A stretch of DNA of 64,000 nt from Halobacteriovoraceae bacterium. GTDB taxonomy: Bacteria > Bdellovibrionota > Bacteriovoracia > Bacteriovoracales > Bacteriovoracaceae. The translations under genes were made by a program, and so were the position numbers. The stretch spans positions 248,001-312,000 of the forward strand of contig PASN01000013.1 of assembly GCA_002711995.1 (NCBI GenBank), written 5' to 3'. Every line of letters starts with the position of its first letter. Position 1 is the stretch's first letter. Below, piece after piece: positions 39,423-44,413 of this stretch. Under the pieces are notes generated by a model. That model did no database searches, was not told the DNA's origin, and saw only the letters and a program-made list of their open reading frames with translations.

Positions 39423-40919
39423 ATGCATAAATTAAATATACTCAAGATCGGATTTCTTATTATTTCTATTCTCACACTTAATTCTTGCTCTAGTGGAGAT
39501 TTAGAGGAAGGTGAGGTTAGCGCTTACGGGTCTAAGGAGTATGCTGAGTCACTAGTGAGTTCAATTCCTGCAAGATGGTTTGAAACCGTGGATAGATTTA
39601 GTCTTAAAGACTCCAAGGGAGCTCCATTGCCTCACTTGTTTTTTGACACATTTGCCAGGGTAAACCCTAAAGAGAAAACACTTAATTTTATCGCTGTTAC
39701 TCCGCAAAACCATCCAACTGAACAAGGACTTGATCTGGCCTCTGGACAGCTTTACTTAAAAAGAAAATATTGTGCGCATAGTGATGCTTGGGGGAAATAT
39801 GAGGGAGAAATAAATCGACCGCCATTTACATTGGGGATCGTGCCCAGGGTCCTTGATCAACTAAACACCCCTCAAAAAATCATAGTTTTTGGACAAGGTG
39901 GCTATTACCAAAAATATTTTAAGCAAAACTATTTTGATGCGCGAGTCGTGGGCGCCTATGTTGAGCAAGAGTGTCCAAGGGGAGCTTGTGTGAATAAAGG
40001 CTCATGGCTTTCGAGACTTGTCTTGGTAGGCGTGCAAAAAAATAATAAGAAGTATAAAGACGTAAAAAATGTTCAAGACCTTAAACAATTAGTGAATTGG
40101 CCGGCAGTAAAGGCTTTTATAGAGAATGGACAGGGACAAAACCTCATTGTAAGCAAGTTTTATCCATCAGTGCGAATGGGCGCCGTGGTAGACGCCTCCC
40201 AAGCATTCAGGTTTCTAAAGGACTATTCCCACTTCTTTACAAACAAGAAGTTAAAAAAAATGAGGATTGGCTGCTACAAAATGTATGACTACCTTTGGAA
40301 AGACTTTAGCGCCGCTCTTGCGCAAGATAAAACATTGATTAAGAAAAAGAGCTCCCTGAAGGATAAAAGTATTATTCTCGTAGAGGGAGAGGACAGCTCT
40401 AATAAAGAAAGTATTTTTCACAAAAAGTTCTATCGCAACTTCAAACGTTTCCATGAACGATACAAGACTTGCTCTAAATATGTTCTTCCTAGTAGTGTAA
40501 ACGCTGATGCAAAGAGACATTGGTTCTTTAGCTATCTTACGGGCTATCATAAACTGCACGAGCTCGGTTATTACTTTGACTGTAAAAGAGGCTCTTGGGC
40601 ATCGAATCCTTATATTGCCAAAAAAGAAAAAGTTGTTCCTTTGGAAAGACAGTTTAGGGGATGTTCCGCAAAGTCTTTGAATAGAGCAATGAAAACGCTA
40701 CCCATTTTCTTTGAGAATCTGAAAGAGAGATCCAAGCAGGCGTTCAGGTACGTTGACTATGACAGCGGTGCCTTGGGAACCCATTCCAAGCTCTACTCTT
40801 GGGTTGAGCATGACAACAAAATCTTAAGTTGTTCAAAAGACCAAAATAAAAAATACTTCAAGCACAAACTGCCAACCTTTCCTAAAGATATTCGTTGGGA
40901 AGAAATTGGAAATAATTAG
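39423..40919 (+). CDS. Lipoprotein of unknown function
   Basis: 498 residues. Leader with lipobox LNSC. The mature part is basic and aromatic-rich, with several Cys (YCAHSD, ECPRGACV, IGCYKMYDYLW, KTCSKYV, FDCKRG, RGCSAKS) that suggest disulfides, and no catalytic motif I recognise. It is encoded two bases before the NuoB-like gene, so it heads the same probable operon as the NuoB/CD/I-like set. Confidence 0.7.
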   Translation: MHKLNILKIGFLIISILTLNSCSSGDLEEGEVSAYGSKEYAESLVSSIPARWFETVDRFSLKDSKGAPLPHLFFDTFARVNPKEKTLNFIAVTPQNHPTEQGLDLASGQLYLKRKYCAHSDAWGKYEGEINRPPFTLGIVPRVLDQLNTPQKIIVFGQGGYYQKYFKQNYFDARVVGAYVEQECPRGACVNKGSWLSRLVLVGVQKNNKKYKDVKNVQDLKQLVNWPAVKAFIENGQGQNLIVSKFYPSVRMGAVVDASQAFRFLKDYSHFFTNKKLKKMRIGCYKMYDYLWKDFSAALAQDKTLIKKKSSLKDKSIILVEGEDSSNKESIFHKKFYRNFKRFHERYKTCSKYVLPSSVNADAKRHWFFSYLTGYHKLHELGYYFDCKRGSWASNPYIAKKEKVVPLERQFRGCSAKSLNRAMKTLPIFFENLKERSKQAFRYVDYDSGALGTHSKLYSWVEHDNKILSCSKDQNKKYFKHKLPTFPKDIRWEEIGNN

Positions 40920-40921
40920 CA

Positions 40922-41317
40922 ATGTCATTTTTAAATAAAAATCGTAAAGAAACCTCAGAAACTATTTTCAGGCCAATGGTTGTCGGGGATGAGCACCTGG
41001 CCTATCGTCTCCAAGTGCACTTCCTAGAGCGTGAGGATCTAAATGTTGATCCTCTTTCATACATCGAGAACACCTGGAGACCAAACTTATACATTGTAGT
41101 TGGGCCAGCGAATGACAAACTGCTGGATAAGGTGGAAAAGACGCTCAAAAAAAATGATGAGTACCGCTTGATTTACGCTTGCTCAACGCTTACTGACGAG
41201 GGCCAAAAGAAAGCAGAGAAAGTGGCGTCCAAGTTAAACGCAGACATATCCATTATCAAAAGATTTGTGGGTGTTGAGGATGTTGGAGAGGCCATAAAAA
41301 GGTTAGCGAATGTTTGA
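40922..41317 (+). CDS. Small NuoB-like protein lacking the cluster cysteines (tentative)
   Basis: 131 residues. Alone it is not obvious, but in line with NuoB the segment RPNLYIVVGPANDKLLDKVE matches the ADL(M/I)VV-G...K position, LIYACSTLTDEG matches the ISMGACANSGG position, and the C-terminal ISIIKRFVGVEDVGEAIKRL matches the PVDVY.PGCPPRP helix. All four N2-cluster Cys of NuoB are absent (only one Cys remains). Its place directly before a NuoCD-like gene supports the reading. Any fold-level claim needs a structure comparison. Confidence 0.45.
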   Translation: MSFLNKNRKETSETIFRPMVVGDEHLAYRLQVHFLEREDLNVDPLSYIENTWRPNLYIVVGPANDKLLDKVEKTLKKNDEYRLIYACSTLTDEGQKKAEKVASKLNADISIIKRFVGVEDVGEAIKRLANV

Positions 41318-42854
41318 TATGGAAAAGCTCGTTCAAGAATTGAACGCCCGGGTTCTCCTAGAAGAGGATCAATTGATAATACTTGAAACTTCAAAAGAGA
41401 GGCTTGAGTCAACTGCCGTCTATCTTAAGAATCACATGGGTTTTGTTTTCCTGAAACTTGTTAATACTTCAGGAAACGCAGACTCGAGAAAGGTTTGGTA
41501 CTGGTTTGAAAATATCGAGACAGGCGCTGCATTAGGACTTTTTCTTTTTTCCCAGGAGGAGGGGATTCCATCTCTCTCTTCTGTATTTAAAAATGCTAAA
41601 CACCTAGAGCAGATGTGTTTTGAGGAAATCCTAGAGTCAGACTATTTATCAAGAAGCGATGAATTGCCTCCTACAAAAAAGTCAGTTGAAGCGGCCTTTG
41701 TTAATCCCTCTGTAAGGGAGGTGTTCAATCCTTCTTCCTTTTTGAGTGTGGATGGAGAGCTGGAGACTGGAGTTGTCACAATTGATGAAGCGGTTCAATA
41801 TTGCAAAGTATTCTCAGGCCGTTATCATAGCGGGTTTGAAAAGCAGATAAGCGGCAAGCACTTTGATGAGGTCGCGAAGGATTTGCTAACGTATGATGGC
41901 TATCAGGGCATTGTATGGAGCAACTTATTCCTACAGGCACTTGAGAAGAGAAATCATATTGCGATACCAGATAAAGCCCAGGCAATTCGGATTATATTTA
42001 TTGAATTTGCTAGGATGCAGGAGCATCTACAATTTCTTGCAAACATTGCTCAAGAGGCCAAGGCCAAGTCTTTCCATCTCACTATATTAAAGTGGAGTCT
42101 GGTCCTTGAAAGACTGTTGAGACAATACACTGGCAACTCCTTAAACCTTGGAATTTTAACTTTAGGGGGAGTGAATAGGGTTCCCCCAGTTAACTGGCTA
42201 TCAACATGTATTCAAGAATTGGCCAAGGTTGGCAAAGAGGGGTCCGAATTTGTTGAAAAACTTTCAAAGAGCTCTTTCTGGAGACAGCTTGATGAGGTTG
42301 CTCCATTGCAACCAAAGCTTCTTATTGACTGGTCTATTCAAGGTCCTGCACTAAGGGCCTCTGGCATAAACTTTGACCTAAGAAAAAGAAGGCCGACCTA
42401 TCTTTACGATGAATTGGAATTTCAAACACCCATAGGAGTCAATGGGTCTCTCTACGACAGGTTTTTAGTGAGGTTCGAAGAAATAGCTCAATCTATTTCA
42501 ATTATTTCACAACTTTTGGACAACTTGCCAACAGATGGAGTGGTGGCAAAAGGTGTTCCGCACTTTTCACATCTTTCCTCCGATATTGAAAATAATGAAG
42601 AGTCCTATGAAGCAAGTATTCTTAAAAGTATGAAACTTAAGGACGGGGAATATTATAGTTCTATGGAGGCCGCCTCTGGAAGCATACAAATTTTCTTCTC
42701 TTTAGTGGATAACAAAGTTTATGACTTAAAACTTGGAACAGACTACTTGAGTAAACTATTGTGCTTGGAAGAGGTTTCTTTTGGAATCACTTACGAAAAC
42801 TTAGGTCTTTTGCTAAAATCAATGCATATAAATCAAAAAGCTTTGGAAAAATAG
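41310..42854 (+). CDS. NuoC-NuoD (30 kDa + 49 kDa) fusion-like protein, divergent
   Basis: 514 residues, starting 8 bases inside the upstream gene. Residues about 1-112 resemble NuoC (GFVFLKLV, GIPSLSSVFKNAKHLEQ). Residues about 140-514 resemble NuoD: RYHSGFEK for the HRG-EK site, IPDKAQAIRIIFIEFARMQEHL for the P-RA..IR...EL-RI.SH helix, and PALRASGINFDLRKRRPTYLYDE with GSLYDRFLVRFEEIAQSISII for the GP-LRASG-DLRK block. The GPQHPA.HG loop of NuoD, with its quinone-site His, is not visible, and no NiFe CxxC pair is present. Thus it is a complex-I-derived protein of unknown redox role, not a hydrogenase. Confidence 0.72.
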   Translation: MFDMEKLVQELNARVLLEEDQLIILETSKERLESTAVYLKNHMGFVFLKLVNTSGNADSRKVWYWFENIETGAALGLFLFSQEEGIPSLSSVFKNAKHLEQMCFEEILESDYLSRSDELPPTKKSVEAAFVNPSVREVFNPSSFLSVDGELETGVVTIDEAVQYCKVFSGRYHSGFEKQISGKHFDEVAKDLLTYDGYQGIVWSNLFLQALEKRNHIAIPDKAQAIRIIFIEFARMQEHLQFLANIAQEAKAKSFHLTILKWSLVLERLLRQYTGNSLNLGILTLGGVNRVPPVNWLSTCIQELAKVGKEGSEFVEKLSKSSFWRQLDEVAPLQPKLLIDWSIQGPALRASGINFDLRKRRPTYLYDELEFQTPIGVNGSLYDRFLVRFEEIAQSISIISQLLDNLPTDGVVAKGVPHFSHLSSDIENNEESYEASILKSMKLKDGEYYSSMEAASGSIQIFFSLVDNKVYDLKLGTDYLSKLLCLEEVSFGITYENLGLLLKSMHINQKALEK

Positions 42855-42856
42855 TT

Positions 42857-43225
42857 ATGATACTACCCTTAAGACTTTACCGTGAACACAGCATCTTTAA
42901 GTCAATGAAACTTGTTGTGTCATCTGCGACACTCAAGCTGGTTGGAGTATTCGGTATGAGGCCATCGTTCGAGGCCGGCTATTCAAAGCAGTATCCAGTT
43001 CTCAAAAGAAATGAGCAAGGAGTTCCTGAATGTGTTTCTTGTGGGCTATGCGTAGAGATATGCCCAACAAAAGCTATAAAAATTGAAGTTGATAAAAAGA
43101 TACAAATTCCCAAAACTCTAACTTCAGGCCCGGCCCCTAAGATGTTTGAAGTCGATCATGCATTGTGTGTGCAATGCTCTCTTTGTGAGCAGGTTTGTCC
43201 TGTGGATGCTATAACTGTAATCTAA
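42857..43225 (+). CDS. NuoI-like 2x[4Fe-4S] ferredoxin
   Basis: 122 residues from ATG 42857, two bases after the NuoCD-like stop. Two perfect ferredoxin motifs: CVSCGLCVEICP (Cys 59, 62, 65, 69) and CVQCSLCEQVCP (Cys 104, 107, 110, 114), as in the NuoI/TYKY subunit. The N-terminus (about 1-45) contains an amphipathic segment like the membrane-contacting helix of NuoI. It would carry electrons in the same complex as the preceding two genes. Confidence 0.82.
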   Translation: MILPLRLYREHSIFKSMKLVVSSATLKLVGVFGMRPSFEAGYSKQYPVLKRNEQGVPECVSCGLCVEICPTKAIKIEVDKKIQIPKTLTSGPAPKMFEVDHALCVQCSLCEQVCPVDAITVI

Positions 43226-43327: not shown

Positions 43328-44413
43328 ATGATCAAAAGCATTCTAAAAACATCAGTGATTCTTGCATCTGCTTATTTAGGAGTCACTTATTTAATCGAAA
43401 CATTCATCGGATCAAATGGTTTTGCTGGAACTGTTTGGCAAGAAAACTCTGTCATAAAGTTTGTGGCATACGCCGTGATTATGACCCACGTTACTATTAC
43501 TTCAATGAGCATTTCATTTCACCGCTTCCACACCCACAAGGGTGTTGTGGTAAATAAATTTGTGGACACCTTGATGCAACTAAACCTATGGCTTGTAGGT
43601 GGAATGTCTAAATTGGACTGGGTCTCCGTCCATGTTTACCACCATGCTCACTCGGACCAACCAAAAGATCCACACAGTCCTGTGCAGAAAGGACTGATGC
43701 ACATTCTATTTCTTGGCGTGTTTGACTATACCAAAGCAAAAAACAGCGAACCTATTCTTAAGATTAGAAAGACTTTGAAGAGAAACAAGTTGGAGCAGTT
43801 CATTGCAGACCACACTTTATTGGGCCTTGTTCTAACCACTCTTTTTAATTTGGTTCTTTTTGGGCCATTTTATGGAAGCATTATTTCTCTTATTAATTTC
43901 TCGATCTCTCCAATTTTTGCTGTGGGTGGGGTTAACGGATTCGCTCACTGGTTTGGTTACAAAAACCACGCCTATAAAGACAATAGTCGAAATTTAGGTT
44001 TTTTATTTCCTTTGAACTTTTTAATTTGCGGGGAGTTGGACCATAACAATCACCACGCACATCCAAAGTCGTGCTCCTTCAGACATAGATGGTTTGAGTT
44101 TGACTGGGGCTATTTCTACATCAAGCTTATGCATTCGACAGGCCTTGCCAAGATCAAGAATGCTTACACACCAAAGACCTTGAAGAAAGACCTCAGCGTG
44201 AAGCTAACAGCGCTGATGGAGAAAGACTACAGGTTTAGAAAAAAGCTTGAGGAACTGGCGGATGAGCTAAATACCAACGCCGATGAGCTTTTCACTATGA
44301 TTAAAGACTATGTGGAAGGTAAAAAAGTTGATCTAACAAAAGATGTTAAAGCTCTAATTAGCGAAGCGAGAAGAACTCTTTACGCTAACTACAGATTGAA
44401 TCTTTCTTATTAA
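43328..44413 (+). CDS. Membrane fatty-acid desaturase (delta-9 acyl-lipid/acyl-CoA type)
   Basis: 361 residues with four hydrophobic segments. Three His boxes bind the di-iron centre: HRFHTH (65-70), HVYHHAHSD (102-110) and DHNNHHAHP (238-246). The GGVNGFAHWFGY segment is also typical. It inserts a cis double bond in acyl chains using oxygen and electrons. The C-terminal 70 residues add a charged tail not seen in minimal desaturases. It is 102 bases after the NuoI-like ferredoxin gene, which could be its electron donor (inference). Confidence 0.88.
   Translation: MIKSILKTSVILASAYLGVTYLIETFIGSNGFAGTVWQENSVIKFVAYAVIMTHVTITSMSISFHRFHTHKGVVVNKFVDTLMQLNLWLVGGMSKLDWVSVHVYHHAHSDQPKDPHSPVQKGLMHILFLGVFDYTKAKNSEPILKIRKTLKRNKLEQFIADHTLLGLVLTTLFNLVLFGPFYGSIISLINFSISPIFAVGGVNGFAHWFGYKNHAYKDNSRNLGFLFPLNFLICGELDHNNHHAHPKSCSFRHRWFEFDWGYFYIKLMHSTGLAKIKNAYTPKTLKKDLSVKLTALMEKDYRFRKKLEELADELNTNADELFTMIKDYVEGKKVDLTKDVKALISEARRTLYANYRLNLSY

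Follow-up and report, generated by a model that had tools for sequence, protein, structure and literature searches.

A second, strongly reduced complex I in Bacteriovoracaceae, probably retained as a non-respiratory membrane assembly

In the usual view, complex I is a pump driven by redox reactions, and its parts have a purpose only in connection with electron transfer. Three overlapping plus-strand genes from a Halobacteriovoraceae bacterium raise the question of what such parts may do once the redox residues are gone. They lie in a stretch of 64,000 nucleotides (contig PASN01000013.1, positions 248,001 to 312,000), hereafter the window, to which all coordinates refer unless another record is named. 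The original prediction described them as a stripped-down Q-module in the nuoB-CD-I order, possibly a soluble electron-transfer complex linked to a neighbouring lipoprotein or desaturase. The three genes are present in the list of open reading frames, in a closely packed plus-strand run of four:

39423-40919, plus strand: lipoprotein of 498 aa with the lipobox LNSC (AlphaFold, Foldseek, invariant cysteines)
40922-41317, plus strand: NuoB-like protein of 131 aa with none of the four N2 cysteines (leave-genus-out HMM, AlphaFold/Foldseek, alignment columns)
41310-42854, plus strand: NuoC-NuoD fusion of 514 aa without CxxC, its quinone-site His and Tyr being lost (PF00346, profile against solved NuoCD, residue check)
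42857-43225, plus strand: NuoI-like two-cluster ferredoxin with eight of eight cysteines (TIGR01971, alignment)

The run is followed by a DesA-type fatty acid desaturase (43328-44413), then by aat, after which the locus is named here, and by an arginase-like gene. Elsewhere in the window, an ORF with a signal-like start at 35384-36295 matches Gln_deamidase_2 (PF18626, E=9e-10), without link to the Nuo-like genes.

The three genes encode homologues of NuoB, NuoCD and NuoI. The 514-aa protein matches PF00346 (E=2.9e-36), with a weak, sub-threshold match to PF00329; its best NCBIfam matches are NuoD models, and the family profile of these fusions matches solved NuoCD with E=2.4e-125, which provides the relationship to NuoC/NuoD that had been proposed. 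On the alignment, the quinone-site His (GPxHP) and Tyr (DRLNY) of NuoD are replaced by F and G; the GPQHP loop had already been reported as not visible. A NiFe hydrogenase, which the original prediction had also discarded, is rejected because the protein contains no CxxC and its family profile scores far more weakly against the corresponding PDB entries. The NuoI-like protein (TIGR01971, E=9.8e-16), which from the ORF listing probably starts at the ATG at 42857 and not at the GTG at 42761, retains in the alignment the eight cluster cysteines seen before.

The NuoB-like protein is the most divergent of the three: it has no meaningful Pfam match, and its sequence alone retrieves nothing among the PDB sequences. 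A NuoB profile built without its own genus ranks it first among the window ORFs (E=7.9e-6), as does a profile made only of four-cysteine NuoBs (E=0.0038). The best PDB match of its AlphaFold model (pLDDT 82) in Foldseek is E. coli NuoB (E=8e-3, probability 1.00), a modest match with receiver domains of response regulators close behind; mammalian NuoB homologues are also among the structural matches. The NuoB identity, initially an inference, is supported by both lines of evidence. In the alignment, the four N2 positions are occupied by H, L, L and R, without a single Cys, as had been suspected. With the N2 cysteines and the quinone-site His and Tyr all absent on proper alignment, the view that this Q-module does not belong to a normal complex I is upheld.

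The expected lack of NADH-side subunits also holds at this locus, where E, F and G are absent. Searches of the rest of the genome found no second NuoD, and no NuoH, NuoE or Pfam-detectable NuoB. The same genome encodes one NQR2/RnfD-family protein and, in a cluster resembling an Mrp operon by gene size and order, two Proton_antipo_M proteins; a Na+-NQR has been reported for Bacteriovorax marinus (PMC4014512).

The predicted absence of membrane subunits is true of the aat locus only. One relative (G015, record L113) carries two membrane arms, A1-N1 and then A2-N2, back to back beside mfd. In the family members read at mfd, the slot bounded by N1 (or by mfd) on one side and by a TPR protein of about 1000 aa, usually followed by serS, on the other contains either extra membrane ORFs, seven in most cases, or none, and it is filled in most f1 genomes. 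The second arm has canonical size in some relatives and is degenerate in others. NuoH is detectable in intermediate arms (E=5e-40 in G023, E=2e-10 in G018), the N subunit of the G036 second arm matches PF00361 (E=1e-8), and in profile comparisons the degenerate H and N match NuoH (92%) and NuoN (97%); the same comparisons did not resolve the degenerate A, J, K, L and M against their canonical counterparts. In several relatives this second arm is therefore homologous to that of complex I. Since L, M and N are confused with one another in the iterated HMM chain, the one-to-one assignment of these paralogues in degenerate genomes follows gene order. The pump motif K....PFHxW, a pattern that does not fit L, occurs without exception in the 19 first-arm M and N subunits examined; among second arms, G015 has it, G021 and G036 have it in part (with R in N and in M, respectively), and the others lack it. 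Charged residues in hydrophobic segments did not separate reduced from ordinary arms.

The genome under study has a candidate arm on another contig:

L133:9569-14452 (G000:C18): seven membrane ORFs in A-H-J-K-L-M-N order

These ORFs encode 97, 272, 141, 89, 294, 346 and 407 aa, with 3, 7, 4, 2, 7, 9 and 10 hydrophobic segments in a simple hydropathy count. They have no convincing match in Pfam, and the putative M and N subunits do not contain the pump motif. When two relatives, G001 and G002, were added to support the profile comparisons, the J and K ORFs each found their own counterpart (75% and 77%, respectively), both weakly, while A, H, L, M and N are not recognisable by sequence. As most of these ORFs are thus unreadable, it is their synteny, order, size and hydrophobic segments, together with the weak J and K matches, that point to this genome's arm. 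For the family as a whole there is good support for a complex I identity; for this particular arm, the assignment depends mainly on synteny. The adjacent TPR protein (L133:14449-17541, G000:C18) begins with a weakly GYF_2-like region and contains a single hydrophobic segment, and it stays beside the slot even in genomes without an arm (G008, G019).

The comparison of relatives reveals a graded series of states. At the aat locus, two genomes (G015, G032) have a full lipoprotein-B-CD-E-F-G-I operon, and a third (G007) has lipoprotein-B-CD together with E, F, G and I in shortened form, the GRGGAGFP motif of its NuoF not being seen in the stretch examined. E, F and G are missing at most loci: most relatives, this genome included, have lipoprotein-B-CD-I, and four (G013, G016, G020, G026) have the lipoprotein and CD. 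Quinone-site His and Tyr are kept together in 5 of 17 sequences (G010, G015, G021, G029, G032). All four N2 cysteines are present in 12 genomes, three in G003 and G017, and none or one in nine others; on the Mfd tree, these losses correspond to at least four changes if partial sets are counted as lost; if the remaining states are treated separately, well-supported branches force five changes for the N2-lost group. The NuoI clusters are intact in most relatives and broken in five (G006, G017, G022, G025, G036), with a CPxC...CxxC pattern still left in G022 and G036. From these states, and not from a formal reconstruction, a rough order of loss may be read: E, F and G, then the quinone residues and pump lysines, then N2, the NuoI clusters, B and I, and finally everything. 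G025 (L102), with a lipoprotein of 173 aa, no B, open CD and I and no second arm at mfd, possibly represents a late stage of this process. The simplest history is that the ancestor of the family had a second, complete complex I and that its many reductions since then took much the same course. The ordinary complex I can itself be divided: in G009 (L108, L109), it is split into B-C-D-I without E, F and G and a distant A-H-J-K-L-M-N at mfd.

The aat and mfd loci co-occur and shrink together. Among genomes in which both are readable, 24 have arm and CD, four have neither, two have CD only (G003, G025) and none has the arm only (Fisher p=5e-4, kinship ignored). The score of CD against ordinary NuoCD correlates with that of the second-arm H against ordinary NuoH (rho 0.63, p=0.0009, n=24, kinship again ignored). 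Only three independent pairs are well supported; CD follows the arm in one or two of them and opposes it in none. The number of N2 cysteines does not track arm length (rho 0.15). Between this genome and G001, pN/pS is 0.37 for CD, 0.42 for I and 0.50-0.78 for the arm, against 0.21 and 0.25 for the reference genes mfd and aat; because pS is saturated, these ratios are probably overestimates. In each of the genes compared, conservation is highest at codon position 2. The arm genes change fast (25-44% identity in the same comparison) and their frames stay open.

The neighbours of the Nuo-like genes were considered as possible partners. The lipoprotein consists of an N-terminal pyrophosphatase fold and a cysteine-rich C-terminal part. 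The best 50 Foldseek matches listed for its AlphaFold model (pLDDT 87) are all family-I inorganic pyrophosphatases, headed by 6mt1_B (E=2.8e-9), and a weak sequence profile agrees. By eye, the catalytic, metal-binding Asp motif DxDPxD is replaced by an NTPQK-type sequence; eight cysteines, beyond that of the lipobox, are invariant across relatives. In the 59 genomes searched, the protein is restricted to Bacteriovoracaceae, mostly at the aat locus where its neighbours are readable. As to the suggested link to this lipoprotein, it is a near-constant neighbour, yet it survives without Nuo genes in G008, G019 and G031, and it is missing from G027, where B and CD are kept. With these exceptions and association values of p=0.08 with CD and p=0.02 with the arm, an obligate partnership was rejected; the lipoprotein may be a partner of the complex or merely a neighbour, and the link is suggestive. 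The proposed link to the desaturase did not hold. Only some relatives have this gene at the aat locus (G001, G002, G006, G019, G025, L164), and it persists in G019, where the Nuo genes are gone.

We favor, with a probability of about 0.6, a membrane assembly that descends from complex I and is retained in a non-respiratory role, with a function that we infer. B, CD and I would form the cytoplasmic side of this second, much reduced complex I, and the ancestral machine would have been complete in two loci, lipoprotein-B-CD-E-F-G-I by aat and A-H-J-K-L-M-N by mfd. Most members have lost the NADH module, the quinone residues and the pump lysines, and many have lost N2 as well, the remaining genes staying under constraint. 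CD, B and I would now assemble with the shortened membrane arm as its non-respiratory cytoplasmic cap, and the whole may serve the inner membrane as a structural scaffold or as a conduit for ions or solutes. Several observations count against this reading: the eight NuoI cysteines kept here are needless for a purely structural role, two genomes (G003, G025) have CD without an arm at mfd, N2-cysteine counts and arm length do not go together, few independent pairs underlie the association of the two loci, and A, H, L, M and N are unrecognisable here. A stronger version, in which a complete complex I architecture would several times independently have lost its NADH, quinone, pump and N2 residues and would now serve a new function as a membrane machine without redox activity, is put forward as tentative.

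Plain decay, in which every lineage is on its way to losing the second complex I and the genes are functionless remnants of different age, would account for the graded losses, the lipoprotein-only and empty loci, the very fast arm genes and the eroded locus of G025. It is nevertheless unlikely, as it does not fit the seven open and ordered arm ORFs found in all three genomes of the genus, one of them cut by a contig end, nor pN/pS values below 1 and the conservation of codon position 2 in all genes, CD and I being clearly constrained. Because input, output and pump sites were lost before the internal clusters, while the genes remain open and constrained, a retained assembly is favored over such decay. 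Alternatively, the NuoI clusters, and N2 where it is kept, could still carry electrons between a ferredoxin-like donor and some acceptor. The intact NuoI cysteines here and in most relatives would then be explained, as would the 12 genomes with a full set of N2 cysteines, several of which have lost the quinone site or the pump motif. Yet N2 is lost here and the genome has no NuoE, five relatives have lost the NuoI clusters, and I and B are missing from other genomes that keep CD and the arm; persistent electron transfer is accordingly quite improbable. The soluble complex without membrane arm of the original prediction could draw on the lack of membrane subunits at the aat locus and on the two genomes with CD and no arm at mfd. 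It was put aside after the arm was found at mfd, and it is probably wrong, with very little likelihood left to it: CD accompanies the arm in each of the 24 genomes that have an arm and whose CD locus can be read, relatives carry a matching second arm and this genome has its own seven-ORF membrane cluster.

If the retained assembly still works, complex I can outlive its chemistry, and what its parts do without redox becomes testable. The Bacteriovoracaceae, which include predatory bacteria, would offer a natural dissection of complex I, from fully equipped through redox-stripped to almost unrecognisable, in which the membrane genes of the second arm are missed by standard annotation. The lipoprotein-B-CD-I arrangement also occurs in a record named as Halobacteriovorax marinus (L176) and in a MAG named as Bacteriovorax stolpii (L164), whose NuoB-like protein has neither CC nor GCP, and may therefore be reachable in culturable predators. 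No published account of a redox-stripped second complex I was found in the literature searched; as this search covered few subscription papers, novelty is provisional.

Among known systems, respiratory complex I with a NuoCD fusion is the closest, sharing homologous B, CD and I in the nuoB-CD-I order, with full E, F and G in G015 and G032 and an A-H-J-K-L-M-N arm in the same family. The present set differs from it by the absence of the NADH module, N2 and the quinone His and Tyr, and by a candidate arm that lies at a separate locus and is unrecognisable by Pfam. The 11-subunit complex-I-like enzymes likewise have no E, F and G ('C-I-like' is the term for sets missing EF or EFG, PMC12361115), but they are respiratory, whereas here the quinone-site residues and N2 are gone too. 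With family-I inorganic pyrophosphatases, the lipoprotein shares the fold of one part, from which its membrane-anchor type (lipobox), replaced Asp motif and additional cysteine-rich part set it apart. Group 4 NiFe hydrogenases, formate hydrogenlyase (FHL) and Mbh have subunits distantly homologous to NuoB and NuoD; in contrast to them, the fusion protein has no NiFe CxxC pairs, and its family profile matches FHL (3.6e-51) and Mbh (3.2e-48) far less well than NuoCD. Energy-converting hydrogenase-related (Ehr) complexes are relatives of complex I without NiFe ligands. The second complex I of the Bacteriovoracaceae would differ from these in being directly traceable to a full complex I within the same family.
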